Assembly: GCF_029238095.1 (NCBI RefSeq)
Contig: NZ_JAQWGS010000010.1
Coordinates: 1 to 64,000 of the forward strand
Direction: 5' to 3'
DNA from: Lacinutrix sp.
GTDB lineage: Bacteria; Bacteroidota; Bacteroidia; Flavobacteriales; Flavobacteriaceae
Length of the DNA stretch: 64,000 bases
A model generated the notes under the pieces. That model saw nothing but the letters and a program-made list of their open reading frames with translations, did no database searches and was not told the origin of the DNA. Both the position numbers and the translations under genes were made by a program. Positions 14,587 to 52,005 of the stretch are shown here, piece by piece. The first letter of the stretch is position 1; each line of letters begins with the position of its first letter.

Positions 14587-16677
14587 ATGAAATTTTTTAA
14601 ATTCCTTTTACTTTTTATCACCATTAATGTGTCTGCACAACAAGGTGGAATGTGGATTCCTTCGCTTTTAGAAGGGATGAATGAAGACGAAATGACAAAT
14701 CTTGGAAGTAAACTCACCGCAAAAGATATTTACGATGTTAATAATTCTAGTCTTAAAGATGCCATTGGCCACTTTAATGGTGGATGTACCAGTGAGATAA
14801 TTAGTGATCAAGGTTTAATTTTAACCAATCACCACTGTGGATTTGGACAAATACAATCGCACTCTTCTTTAGAAAACGATTATCTAAAAGATGGTTTTTG
14901 GGCAAAGAATCTTGAAGATGAATTGCCAAACGAAGGATTATACATTGAGTTTATAGTGAGAATTGAAGATGTAACCACTAAGGTTTTAGCCAACGTAAAC
15001 GATACAATGACTGAGAAAGAGAAGCAATCTCAAATTAGTAAAAATAGTAATGCTGTTGAAGGTTCTACTGCCAAAGAAGCTTGGCAAGACACTAAGGTTA
15101 AATCTTTTTACAATGGTAACCAATACTTTTTATTTGTAACAGAACGTTTTGAAGATATTAGATTAGTTGGTGCTCCACCAACAAGTATTGGGAAATTTGG
15201 TAGTGATACAGACAATTGGGTGTTCCCAAGGCATACAGGAGATTTTTCTATGTTTCGTATTTATGCAGATGCCAATAATAGACCTGCAAAATATAGTAAA
15301 GACAACAAACCATATAAACCAAAACACTTTTTATCAATTTCATTAGATGGTGTTGAAGAAGGCGATTTTACATTAGTTTTTGGCTTTCCAGGAACTACAA
15401 GCGAATATTTACCTGCTGTAGCAATAGAGCACATTACAAAAGAATTTAACCCTACAAATATTGCTATTCGCGAGGCTGCTTTAAAAGTTATTGATGCTAA
15501 AATGAAAGAAAGCGACGCTGTACGTATTAAATATGCTTCTAAACAAGCTCGTATCGCAAACGCTTGGAAAAAATGGATAGGCGAAAACCTTGGGATTGAT
15601 AAGAGTGATGCTGTTGCAAAAAGACGTGCTTTTGAAGCTTCTTTTACTAAAGCTTTAAAAGAAAATAATTTAGAACAGAAATACGGAACTATTTTACCAG
15701 AATTTGATAGGCTTTACAAAGACTTTGCACCTACAAACATTAAACGTAGAAACTTTATTGAGGTATTCTTAGTTACTAATGAACTTATGCAAATGACCTT
15801 TAGAGCTTACCAAATGGAACAAGCGATAGCTGCTAATCCTGCAAATTTAGAAGCTGCAAAAGAGCGTTTGGTAGGCACATTAAACGGTATTCATAAAAAT
15901 TACGATGTTACTGTAGATAAAGGTGTTTTTAGTAATGTGATGCCTTTTTATAATGAAAATGTAGATGTTTCTATTTACAATAAAACAGCACTTACTAATT
16001 TAGATTCTGCCTTAAAACTATTAAAAGGAGATGCAACAGAGGTTCTTAAAAAACTTAACGAAGATGCTGCATATAGTTACGCAAAACCAATGATAGAGGA
16101 GTTTTTTAATACTATAAATGCAGAGTATCAAAACAAAAACGAACCTATAACTGCTTTACAAACAAAATACATGACAGCACTTATGGAAGCCTTACCAAAC
16201 GCACGTTATTTTCCAGATGCAAACAGTACACTTCGTGTAACTTATGGTCAAGTTCGTGGTTATGCACCTAGAGATGCTGTATATTATAATCCTGTAAGTT
16301 ACCTTGATGGTGTTATTGAGAAATTTGTACCTGGCGATTATGAGTTTGATGTACCTAAAAAACTATTGGATTTATATGAAGCTAAGGATTATGGACAGTA
16401 TGCTGATGCTAACGGAAAAGTACCTGTTTGCTTCTTAGGTACAAACCATACAACTGGTGGAAACTCTGGAAGTCCTGCTATTGATGCGCATGGAAATTTA
16501 GTTGGTTTAAACTTCGACCGTGTTTGGGAAGGCACAATGAGTGACATGAACTACGATCCGGAAATATGCAGAAACATTATGGTAGATGCACGTTATGTAC
16601 TATTTATAGTAGATAAGTTTGCAGGTGCTACTCGATTGATTGATGAGATGACGTTGGTGCATCCTAAGAAGAAGTAG
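14587..16677 (+). CDS. S46 dipeptidyl peptidase, DPP11 type (Asp/Glu specificity)
   Basis: This 696-residue exported serine peptidase releases dipeptides from the N-terminus of peptides in the periplasm. The signal peptide is MKFFKFLLLFITINVSAQQ. The triad residues are His83 in LTNHHCGFG, Asp219 in HTGDFSMFRIY and Ser627 in GGNSGSPAID. Arg645 in NFDRVWEG lies 18 residues after the catalytic Ser, the spacing of Ser655 and Arg673 in Porphyromonas gingivalis DPP11. In the family, Arg at this place gives Asp/Glu preference at P1, and Gly gives the broad DPP7 type. Specificity is thus inferred from one residue. It stands alone between the aminotransferase gene (divergent) and the repeat-bounded GIY-YIG gene. 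Confidence 0.93.
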   Translation: MKFFKFLLLFITINVSAQQGGMWIPSLLEGMNEDEMTNLGSKLTAKDIYDVNNSSLKDAIGHFNGGCTSEIISDQGLILTNHHCGFGQIQSHSSLENDYLKDGFWAKNLEDELPNEGLYIEFIVRIEDVTTKVLANVNDTMTEKEKQSQISKNSNAVEGSTAKEAWQDTKVKSFYNGNQYFLFVTERFEDIRLVGAPPTSIGKFGSDTDNWVFPRHTGDFSMFRIYADANNRPAKYSKDNKPYKPKHFLSISLDGVEEGDFTLVFGFPGTTSEYLPAVAIEHITKEFNPTNIAIREAALKVIDAKMKESDAVRIKYASKQARIANAWKKWIGENLGIDKSDAVAKRRAFEASFTKALKENNLEQKYGTILPEFDRLYKDFAPTNIKRRNFIEVFLVTNELMQMTFRAYQMEQAIAANPANLEAAKERLVGTLNGIHKNYDVTVDKGVFSNVMPFYNENVDVSIYNKTALTNLDSALKLLKGDATEVLKKLNEDAAYSYAKPMIEEFFNTINAEYQNKNEPITALQTKYMTALMEALPNARYFPDANSTLRVTYGQVRGYAPRDAVYYNPVSYLDGVIEKFVPGDYEFDVPKKLLDLYEAKDYGQYADANGKVPVCFLGTNHTTGGNSGSPAIDAHGNLVGLNFDRVWEGTMSDMNYDPEICRNIMVDARYVLFIVDKFAGATRLIDEMTLVHPKKK

Positions 16678-16685
16678 TGTTTTAC

Positions 16686-16799
16686 TTCTCGATACAATTT
16701 GCTCGTGCCTCACAAATCACTCGAAGTGACAAACTTAATACTAAACTGAAACTCTTTGTCAGTTCGAGTGATGCGACCAAAGGAGCATTGTATCGAGAA
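16686..16799. repeat. Palindromic repeat copy 1, left of GIY-YIG gene
   Basis: The ends are inverted: ttctcgatacaat (16686-16698) and attgtatcgagaa (16787-16799). Further inside, atcactcgaagtgacaaa pairs imperfectly with tttgtcagttcgagtgat. The whole element can fold into one long interrupted hairpin. A second copy in the same orientation is at 17123-17235, on the other side of the GIY-YIG gene. It ends 4 bases after the gene's stop codon. Confidence 0.9.
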
Positions 16800-16803
16800 C
16801 CTT

Positions 16804-17097
16804 TTAATCTTTAAATTTCTTTTTTGAAAGATTAGGTAACTTCTCAAATTCATTATTTATTAGAGCTTCTTTCTTTGCTCTTGACCATTTTTTTATTTGT
16901 TTTTCAGAATCTATTGCATAATTTGGGTCTGTAAATTCAGCATGAAAAACCAATTTAACTGGTAGTCTTGTATAAGTGTAGCAATCTGGATATTTTCCAG
17001 TTTGGTGTTCTATTATTCTCGAGTACAATTTTGAGCTAAAACCTGTATAATAACTTTTATCGGAGCATTCGAGTATATAAACGTAGTAAGTTTTCAT
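16804..17097 (-). CDS. Small GIY-YIG nuclease-domain protein
   Basis: This 97-residue single-domain protein belongs to the short GIY-YIG (UPF0213/YhbQ-like) family. The GIY position reads YVY (residues 5-7), the YIG position YTG (17-19), the catalytic Arg is R27 in SRIIEHQTG, and the metal-binding Glu is E65 in DSEKQIKKW. All key residues are kept, so the nuclease fold is probably active. The gene is bracketed by two same-orientation copies of a long palindromic repeat, and the whole block abuts a gene remnant. This suggests a small mobile or repeat-linked nuclease. No other gene shares its transcript. Confidence 0.92.
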   Translation of the reverse strand: MKTYYVYILECSDKSYYTGFSSKLYSRIIEHQTGKYPDCYTYTRLPVKLVFHAEFTDPNYAIDSEKQIKKWSRAKKEALINNEFEKLPNLSKKKFKD

Positions 17098-17122
17098 GCT
17101 TAAAGATAGTTAAAAAGTAAGC

Positions 17123-17235
17123 TTCTCGATACAATTTTCTCGTGCCTCGAAAACCACTCGAAGTGACAAACATAATATTAAACTTGAACACATTGTGAGT
17201 TCTATTGACGTGACGAAGGAGCGTTGTATCGAGAA
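17123..17235. repeat. Palindromic repeat copy 2, right of GIY-YIG gene
   Basis: The inverted ends are ttctcgatacaat (17123-17135) and ttgtatcgagaa (17224-17235). Shared inner blocks with copy 1 include ctcgtgcctc, cactcgaagtgacaaac and gaaggagc (aaaggagc in copy 1). Both copies have the same orientation. The element ends two bases before the stop codon of the LytTR remnant. Confidence 0.9.
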
Positions 17236-17237
17236 CT

Positions 17238-17660
17238 TCACCCAATCTTCAACTTACTTAACAGCTCCTGCTTGTACGTTCTACCAATTGGTAATCTATT
17301 TCCTGAAACATAAATTTCGTTTCCAGCAATTTTATCGACATCATTTTTATTTATAATAAACGATTTATGTATTTGAATAAAATCGGTTGTTGCTAGTTTT
17401 TCTTTCCAATTTTTAAGAGATTCTATATACGATAGCTTTTGTGTTTTGGTAACAACTGTAATATAATTTCTATTACTTTCTATAAATAAAATATCACTTA
17501 CTACTATTTTATGATGCGTTTTATCGACATTTAAAAATAGTGTTTCTGTGTTATCTTGTACTCTTGTATTTGGTGCTTTATTACTACGTTTTTCTGCTTT
17601 ATTAATCGCTTTTAAAAACCTATCGAAAGCAAAAGGTTTTACTAGCTGTTGTTGAATTAA
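17238..17660 (-). pseudogene. LytTR response regulator, C-terminal half only
   Basis: The minus strand reads an open frame ending in TGA at 17238 that encodes a complete LytTR DNA-binding domain. It has LFLNVDKTHHKIVVSDILFI, ESNRNYITVVTKTQKLSYIE, FIQIHKSFIINKNDVDKI and NRLPIGRTYKQELLSKL. Before it is the last helix of a receiver domain (LVKPFAFDRFLKAINKAEKR), where the Lys of KPF is the conserved receiver residue. The remaining receiver domain, with the phospho-acceptor Asp and any start codon, is absent; the sequence changes to a GldM-like fragment on the other strand. The exact junction is somewhere at about 17645-17666. No partner histidine kinase is present. Confidence 0.85.
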
Positions 17661-50775: not shown

Positions 50776-52005
50776 CTACTCTTCTTCTCCCATATTATCA
50801 TAGTCGTAATCTGGATATAGAAAATGATTGTATGGAAAACGGGTTACATGGATATCGCGAACCTCGTCGTAAATACGTTTTTTAAAATCTTCAAGATTCT
50901 GTTTATTTAAAGCAGAAATAAATAGCGCGTTATCTTCTCCAACTCTATTCATCCATGTTTTTTTCCACTCTTGAAGGCTGTAATGCTCTTCTGTACGCTC
51001 TGCAATTAAATCTGTTTCATCAAATGGTTTAGGTTGGTAAGCATCAATTTTATTAAAGACCATAATGGTTGGTTTGTCTCCACTATTTATTTCGCCTAAA
51101 ACTTTTTCTACCGATGCGATATGGTCTTCGAAATTTGGATGTGAAATATCTACCACATGTAATAATAAATCGGCCTCACGAACCTCGTCTAATGTGCTTT
51201 TAAAACTGTCTACCAGTTGTGTTGGTAGTTTTCTTATAAAACCAACTGTATCGCTTAATAAAAAAGGAAGGTTTTGGATGACTACTTTTCTTACTGTAGT
51301 ATCTAAAGTTGCAAACAATTTGTTTTCTGCAAACACTTTACTTTTACTAACCGTGTTCATTAAAGTAGATTTACCAACGTTGGTATAACCTACTAAAGCA
51401 ACACGTACCATTTTACCACGATTACCACGTTGTACAGACATTTGCTTGTCTATTACCTTAATTTTTTCTTTTAGCAGAGAAATGCGATCACGAACAATAC
51501 GTCTATCGGTTTCAATTTCGGTTTCACCAGGTCCACGCATTCCAATACCACCTTTTTGACGCTCAAGGTGAGTCCACATTCCTTTTAATCGAGGTAATAA
51601 ATATTCGCATTGTGCTAATTCTACTTGAGTTCTTGCATAACTTGTTTGCGCACGTTGTGCAAAAATATCGAGAATAAGATTGGTTCTATCTAAAACTTTA
51701 CACTCTAGTATTTTGCTAATATTACGTTCTTGAGCTGCAGAAAGCTCATCGTCGAAAATGGCAGTACCAATATTATTATCATGAATATATTGTCGCACTT
51801 CATCCATTTTACCTGTACCAATAAAAGTTTTTGGATTAGGCATATCTATTTTCTGTGAGAATCGTTTTTTAACCTCTCCTCCTGCTGTGTAAGTTAAAAA
51901 CGCTAACTCGTCTAGGTATTCTTTAGATTTTATTTCGTCTTGATCTTTAGTAATTACACCTATTAAAACTGCGCTTTCTAGGTCTATATCTTTCTTTTCT
52001 AGCAT
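50776..52005 (-). CDS. hflX: Ribosome-associated GTPase HflX
   Basis: This 409-residue GTPase splits stalled or hibernating 70S ribosomes, mainly under stress. The N-terminal domain (about 1-195) has KTFIGTGKMDEVRQYI and the glycine-rich RQKGGIGMRGPGETEIETDR. The G domain has G1 GYTNVGKST (206-214), G3 DTVGFIRKLP and G4 NKID. The C-terminal extension is short. It is divergent from the gene at 52084, with a 78-base spacer. Confidence 0.95.
   Translation of the reverse strand: MLEKKDIDLESAVLIGVITKDQDEIKSKEYLDELAFLTYTAGGEVKKRFSQKIDMPNPKTFIGTGKMDEVRQYIHDNNIGTAIFDDELSAAQERNISKILECKVLDRTNLILDIFAQRAQTSYARTQVELAQCEYLLPRLKGMWTHLERQKGGIGMRGPGETEIETDRRIVRDRISLLKEKIKVIDKQMSVQRGNRGKMVRVALVGYTNVGKSTLMNTVSKSKVFAENKLFATLDTTVRKVVIQNLPFLLSDTVGFIRKLPTQLVDSFKSTLDEVREADLLLHVVDISHPNFEDHIASVEKVLGEINSGDKPTIMVFNKIDAYQPKPFDETDLIAERTEEHYSLQEWKKTWMNRVGEDNALFISALNKQNLEDFKKRIYDEVRDIHVTRFPYNHFLYPDYDYDNMGEEE

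Follow-up and report, generated by a model that had tools for sequence, protein, structure and literature searches.

A single-domain GIY-YIG nuclease gene between TGTCA-tagged hairpins in Lacinutrix, a probable unit of a REP-like repeat system

A stretch of 64,000 nucleotides from a Lacinutrix contig, referred to here as the window, contains a small nuclease gene that lies between two copies of a palindromic repeat (Table 1). This arrangement raises the question of whether the enzyme and the repeats belong together, and what kind of unit they would then form. An earlier note, made from the sequence alone, had reported a 97-codon GIY-YIG gene with all catalytic residues, and this description stands; the gene is intact. 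The GIY-YIG family (PF01541) is the sole Pfam domain of the product, scoring 54.7 bits where the cut-off is 22.6, and a HUH/Y1 transposase domain is absent from the protein in the same search. Residues Y7, Y17-T18-G19, R27, E65 and N89 do not vary among 31 aligned relatives, 30 of which also have H31; together we take these to be the catalytic residues. The AlphaFold model of the protein has a mean pLDDT of 87.5, and the best solved structure by fold is the UPF0213 protein BH0048 (1zg2, E = 7e-6). A sequence profile of the window protein also matches 1zg2 (E = 2e-16), and by sequence no solved relatives other than the UPF0213 proteins 1zg2 and 1ywl were found. Pfam, the alignment, the AlphaFold model and the fold search all place the GIY-YIG fold and its motif residues in the window protein.

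Table 1. Features of the nuclease locus in the window (positions are those of the 64,000-nucleotide stretch).
Feature	Position	Strand	Basis
Peptidase S46, upstream neighbour, host gene outside the element	14587..16677	+	PF10459, 745 bits
Left 114-bp element, two half-REPs face to face, tags inward	16686..16799	+	boxes, fold z -7.57
Half-REP 1, GTCAC TTCGAGTG - arm - GTATCGAGAA G on the - strand	16686..16730	-	boxes at 16686, 16718
Half-REP 2, GTCAG TTCGAGTG - arm - GTATCGAGAA C, gene-proximal at the stop side	16758..16799	+	boxes at 16758, 16790
Single-domain GIY-YIG nuclease gene, 97 aa	16804..17097	-	PF01541, motif residues, AlphaFold
Right 113-bp element, copy of the left element	17123..17235	+	identity to left copy
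Half-REP 3, gene-proximal at the start side	17123..17167	-	boxes at 17123, 17155
Half-REP 4, tag box decayed (GTGAGTTCTATTG), GTATCGAGAA end intact	17195..17235	+	boxes, fold
Truncated LytTR-type regulator, downstream neighbour, far end ~17650	17238..17650	-	open in one frame

The gene had further been described as lying between two same-orientation elements of 113-114 bases with inverted ends, the left copy 4 bases from the stop codon of the nuclease gene and the right copy 2 bases from the stop codon of a truncated frame. Coordinates and both distances were confirmed, the two bases being 17236-17237 and the stop codon of the truncated frame 17238-17240 on the minus strand. In the same orientation, the two elements are 83% identical in their first 96 nt and 95% in their last 21, their perfect inverted ends measure 13 nt and 12 nt, and both stand just 3' of stop codons. 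As DNA, the left element folds far better than shuffled sequences (z = -7.57); the right element, in which the inner box is decayed, folds no better than shuffles (z = -1.28), and neither do the single half-elements when compared with full shuffles (z from 0.04 to -1.08). Within the 64 kb of the window the end boxes are confined to this locus, with a lone GTATCGAGAA-like box at 51665 as the exception, and they recur elsewhere in the same genome and in relatives. This distribution, together with a reversed control pattern that was found in 0 of 199 family genomes, excludes chance as the origin of the window repeats. A comparison of the stretch with Rfam returned no family at its curated score, and two sub-threshold microRNA matches were taken as chance. 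The downstream neighbour is named LytTR-type on the assumption that its sequence identifies it; between 17238 and 17860 this regulator ends at about 17650 and is followed by a fragment of a GldM third domain, which marks a rearrangement junction.

The earlier note had treated the 113-bp block as the repeat unit, a view that did not hold. Each block consists of two half-elements of the form GTCA-S-TTCGAGTG-arm-GTATCGAGAA-S', that is, a TGTCA tag followed by a hairpin, as in REP sequences, and the half-element is the unit. The block was rejected as the basic unit on two grounds. Gene-less copies in a nuclease-bearing genome are mostly doublets with their tags outward, and the two S positions, which face each other in full elements, are mispaired in 190 of 194 strand-wise counts (96 C:C and 94 G:G). 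In 331 of 345 distinct halves, S can pair with S' by Watson-Crick rules (C-G 164, G-C 161, A-T 4, T-A 2), and base S is thus matched to its own half. The arms differ in sequence, yet they outfold arm-shuffled copies: over 172 halves the mean z is -2.67, and 95% of the values lie below zero. Since the S-S' pair appears in the predicted fold of just one of the 172 halves, its covariation may reflect a protein contact or, apart from the six A-T and T-A cases, two fixed haplotypes. The tag itself reads GTCA (GTCG once), with a T before it in 18 of 20 orphan loci judged by eye, and a GTAG-type tag is not present in this repeat family. With > for the GTCA box, ] for GTATCGAGAA, [ for TTCTCGATAC and < for the TGAC box, the window can be written as [< >] GENE [<, followed by the last, decayed half, and the two halves next to the gene turn their hairpin sides towards it.

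To see how general this arrangement is, we assembled two sets of close relatives. The first comprised the best 80 of 390 relatives from a protein search of genome contigs, and the second 29 loci from a separate genome search, of which ten were shared with the 80, giving 99 distinct loci. A locus was scored as flanked when TTCTCGATAC or GTATCGAGAA, with at most one mismatch, occurred within 250 bp on both sides of the gene. Boxes on both flanks were found at 76 of the 80 loci and at 27 of the 29, which amounts to 93 of the 99 distinct loci; random 250-bp windows more than 1.5 kb away held any box in 50 of 796 cases. The gene lies in the order >]GENE[< at 57 of the 99 distinct loci (65 of 109 before shared loci were removed) and in the reverse order [<GENE>] at 15 (16 of 109), while the remaining positions are incomplete or mixed. 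Inverted repeats thus flank the gene, as in the definition of RAYT/REP systems, at the 57 loci and, in reverse order, at the 15.

The half-element pattern was detected in 73 of the 199 family genomes, so that the repeat does occur outside the window. Where a close nuclease (E <= 1e-30) is encoded, 30 of 32 genomes carry it, compared with 43 of 167 others (Fisher p = 2e-13); the exact pattern was not found in the other two of the 32. Genomes that had no protein match carried the repeat in seven of 77 cases, among them G070 with 17 hits and G093 with 7. Many genomes hold several GIY-YIG paralogues, and copies containing stop codons are present. At six loci (L056, L058, L065, L079, L081 and L113) long tandem repeat arrays with a near-constant period of about 128-181 bp surround the nuclease gene. 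One contig (G174:C34:6991-9748) shows eight tandem GIY-YIG matches about 365 bp apart. The Rfam RNA Flavo-1 was matched at L055:2608-2682 and L173:457-531, both of which are loci with GIY-YIG genes and repeats, and the L055 match adjoins a repeat array.

Gene-less copies of the repeat do exist, and doublets of the form TGTCA-hairpin-spacer-hairpin-TGACA are dispersed through genomes. Outward doublets (>][<) gave 212 hits in 37 of the 199 genomes and inward pairs 84 hits in 16 genomes, counts in which a pair may be scored on both strands. Inspection of orphan loci in genomes G110 and G168 showed that 12 of 13 begin with the tag and that the spacer between ] and [ measures 11 to 26 nt. All five loci inspected in G101 hold the exact element as a single half.

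The pairing is not restricted to this repeat sequence. We took 40 regions with more distant paralogues. Many of these genes are flanked by other palindromic repeats, whose types include at least CTTCGACTGCGCTCAG..TGACA, GTCTCCTCGAGCGCAGTCGAGAGG and GTCATTGCGAGG..GAAGCAATC among the matches listed. When the two flanks of each gene were compared de novo, with genes whose flanks were shorter than 150 bp dropped, a similarity score of at least 40 was reached by 121 of 163 GIY-YIG genes (L026-L174) as opposed to one of 281 control open reading frames, and by 113 of 153 once duplicate GIY-YIG genes were removed. In a phylum-wide sample the corresponding numbers are 21 of 27 GIY-YIG genes and 0 of 28 controls; its 30 loci, three of which fell to the flank-length filter, were each genome's best match and not a random draw, and genomes G131, G174 and G127 were already part of the family search. 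We read 15 of the 21 positives as REP-like and six as duplications of tRNA ends. Among 16 loci chosen by taxon from 58 plasmid records, six scored at least 40, namely those of Methylobacterium (2), Sinorhizobium, Azospirillum, Sphingobium and Planktothrix; a Spirosoma locus scored 37 and nine others less, although the negative scores of L178 and L180 mean little, since their frame ends were set wrongly. The loci of yazA in B. subtilis and yhbQ in E. coli, both among these nine, showed no flanking repeats.

Small GIY-YIG genes were also seen directly beside tRNA genes at L289, L292, L294, L302, L303 and L306 (ARAGORN: Lys, Val, Asp, Asn, Val and Ser, respectively), and less clearly at L300. At these loci an apparent duplicate of the tRNA 3' end lies on the far side of the gene, which we read as a tRNA-homing lifestyle of related nucleases.

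The type of repeat follows the protein. On a protein tree built from few columns, in which 44 of 81 inner branches are open, repeat class requires 8 changes (minimum 6) as compared with a shuffled mean of 39.2, and class A occupies one side of a branch; the classes were set by our own motifs, 13 genes being assigned by one flank (5 a, 5 b, 3 c) and eight by hand, 40 of the 120 class A rows were kept, and no class was assigned to 4 rows. Genome G168 holds a class A gene (L026) as well as class C and class B genes (L135 and L136), each beside its own repeat type. In class C repeats, two tag-side positions are paired in 19 of 20 and 18 of 20 sequences, with four pair types and expected values of 6.5 and 6.2; class B repeats, represented by 9 sequences, gave no covariation. 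TGTCA is the tag of the window family, whereas Azospirillum and Sphingobium have CGTC and Sinorhizobium has CCTC. The association between GIY-YIG genes and repeats is real and general. The pairing of nuclease and repeat proposed in the earlier note holds in the window family, where flanked relatives are the rule, but its scope was drawn too narrowly, as it extends to other repeat families and other phyla.

Evidence that the unit can be present or absent at one site came from genomes of the same genus. DNA of the peptidase S46 gene was matched in 12 of 13 such genomes, the window's own included, and DNA similar to the LytTR-type neighbour adjoins the peptidase at seven of 11 same-genus loci. 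Five relatives (L198, L199, L202, L204 and L205) have an interval of 84-184 bp between the two genes and no element. At L203 the site holds a repeat pair with an acetyltransferase-like gene (named by eye) and no nuclease, and at L201 an unrelated gene; at L197, L200, L206 and L207 no LytTR-type neighbour was matched beside the peptidase. A second case was found in Azospirillum lipoferum 4B, where sufB and sufC are separated by a GIY-YIG gene that is flanked on either side by REP pairs; the nuclease is absent from this position in all five relatives compared, taken from 11 other Azospirillum records, in an alignment whose insertion breakpoints are approximate. The earlier note had called the block a unit that looks mobile, and the empty sites, the repeat-only site and the orphan repeats support this.

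The organisation closely recalls that of RAYT/REP/REPIN systems, to which the locus had already been likened. According to the available part of PMC2817692, RAYT genes are always found between two inverted REPs. As far as can be judged from the accessible portions of PMC2817692 and PMC3733652, the likeness covers a dedicated enzyme gene flanked by tagged palindromes, dispersed gene-less doublets, and repeats matched to the clade of the enzyme. The analogy holds for organisation and for co-evolution, with flanking repeats and a repeat class that follows the protein tree. The two kinds differ in that RAYTs, in these portions, are HUH tyrosine transposases acting with a GTAG tag, whereas the system described here pairs a GIY-YIG protein with a (C/T)GTC(A) tag.

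A second published class is closer in its tags. CGTC-tagged REPs were defined in 2013 and reported from five phyla (PMC3733652, from the part of the text available). There, the tag is given as CGTC, TGTC or CCTC, the hosts include Bacteroidetes and alpha-proteobacteria, with A. lipoferum and S. meliloti among them, and head-to-head dimers predominate. The repeats are described in the same part as having an 8-9 bp stem with AT as first pairs, a loop of 4-5 nt and a CCA tail, and as not associated with transposase genes and lacking a dedicated transposase. The window family and the Azospirillum repeats share these tags and host groups. The repeat beside the Azospirillum nuclease gene, CGTC-ATCCCCGC-GAAG-GCGGGGAT-CCA, fits the description of CGTC-1 REPs in layout, with the tag, an 8-bp stem starting from AT, a 4-nt loop and the CCA tail, to the extent that this description is accessible. 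The window hairpin differs, being long and interrupted (~45 nt) and lacking the 8-9 bp stem by which CGTC REPs are defined, and the accessible text of PMC3733652 reports no enzyme for CGTC-tagged REPs. The link between the two would rest on the tag and on the full match of the Azospirillum repeat to the CGTC-1 description.

Other GIY-YIG proteins offer partial parallels. The UPF0213 proteins YazA and YhbQ (structures 1zg2 and 1ywl) have the single-domain fold in common with the window protein, and the two housekeeping loci examined are without flanking repeats, unlike the window gene. The Neisseria enzyme Ssn, likewise a small GIY-YIG protein, reportedly has repeated genomic targets, at which it cleaves single-stranded DNA, and influences transformation. 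GIY-YIG homing endonucleases resemble the window system in that the gene sits in a copy of its likely target and sites are occupied or empty, but the target here is a palindromic repeat with many copies, which multiplies in its own right. Among the matches listed in a literature search of incomplete coverage, no paper joined GIY-YIG genes with REP-like repeats; with such coverage, this absence is no proof of novelty. In the part of PMC12306157 available to us, the words 'transposase' and 'nuclease' were not found.

Taken together, the window probably holds a unit of a GIY-YIG-based REP system that is autonomous and built as TGTCA-hairpin-[nuclease gene]-hairpin-TGACA, with the nuclease as the dedicated enzyme of its repeat family. 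Cognate flanking, co-occurrence across genomes, repeat type along the protein tree, hairpin-conserving changes, orphan doublets, and occupied and empty sites all support this. On the best reading, single-domain GIY-YIG nucleases would be to window-type repeats what RAYT transposases are to GTAG REPs, with an unrelated enzyme in their place. We infer that the nuclease would recognise the tagged hairpin, probably in single-stranded DNA during replication, repair or uptake, and would cut by the tag or at the foot of the hairpin. GIY-YIG chemistry hydrolyses DNA and cannot rejoin it by itself, in which it differs from that of RAYTs, and we therefore leave the copying to the host, whose repair or replication would draw on another repeat-bearing template and yield either repeats alone or repeats together with the gene. 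A wider proposal would make single-domain GIY-YIG nucleases the dedicated enzymes that CGTC-tagged REPs, as a superfamily found in different bacterial phyla, have long been missing, and perhaps, by extension, those of Neisseria dRS3 and Rickettsia RPE. These mobile repeats would then be driven by a nuclease of about 97 residues that only hydrolyses DNA, and host repair would finish the copies; we consider the case for this to be evenly balanced.

The main rival holds that the repeats spread by other means and that the GIY-YIG gene, as a selfish homing gene, uses REP doublets as a safe and abundant target, much as tRNA genes seem to be used by other GIY-YIG genes. The two accounts differ mainly in what the enzyme would spread, the repeats or just its own gene. 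The position of the gene in the doublet spacer at 57 of the 99 distinct loci would be expected on this account, as would the occupied and empty sites, the orphan repeats in genomes that have no gene, and the related small nucleases beside tRNA genes with duplicated 3' ends. Genomes with a close nuclease are, however, strongly enriched in the repeat, the gene lies outside the doublet spacer at 15 of the 99 loci, and the 2013 survey, in its available part, reports no other enzyme for repeats of the CGTC type (PMC3733652). We regard homing as possible but distinctly the less likely explanation.

It is rather improbable that nuclease and repeats instead serve the cell and are kept by selection and not by selfish spread, for example by cutting folded single-stranded DNA and so controlling DNA uptake, recombination or mRNA ends. 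Ssn of Neisseria offers an analogy for such a role, but the patchy presence of the unit at one site within a genus, the several paralogues and stop-containing copies in many genomes, and the insertion of a gene inside the suf operon all speak against it.

Movement of another kind was seen in two genomes. In G047 (L240-L247) and G127 (L248-L253), half-elements of the window type lie inside dispersed MITE-like units of about 170-200 bp, several of which have outer inverted ends of the GTTGGGTGCAATTA type and, by eye, duplications of 7-9 bp, such as AGTTTATA in L240. MITE-type movement accounts for at least several of these copies, and not all spread of the repeat need therefore come from the nuclease. 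As a general explanation, in which a classical transposase would move the repeats, either as MITE passengers or as portions of MITEs, and the GIY-YIG gene would hitch-hike, it is unlikely. G047 and G127 have only weak nuclease matches (best E = 1.8e-5 in G047 and 5.7e-14 in G127, where the match contains stops), whereas in the nuclease-bearing genomes G110 and G168 none of 10 complete doublets is flanked by a direct repeat of at least 5 bp (random positions, 7 of 300). No target duplication was seen by eye at the window site, and repeat class tracks the GIY-YIG tree.

That the repeats are ordinary intergenic terminators with a UPF0213/YazA-like housekeeping enzyme between them by chance, a reading to which their place just after stop codons and the UPF0213 structures, the only solved relatives by sequence and the best by fold, might lend some colour, is scarcely credible and was ruled out by the flank boxes, the flank-similarity controls (121 of 163 against 1 of 281), the repeat-free yazA and yhbQ loci and the match between repeat class and protein tree.

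REPs with a dedicated enzyme are already a known kind of system, and the new part lies in the different fold of the enzyme. If the matching of nuclease to repeat is true, an orphan repeat class would become a system with a named enzyme, with clade-by-clade repeat specificity and simple test substrates. It would also provide minimal nucleases with natural and diverse target repeats, and it would mean that REP systems have arisen around two enzyme folds unrelated to each other.
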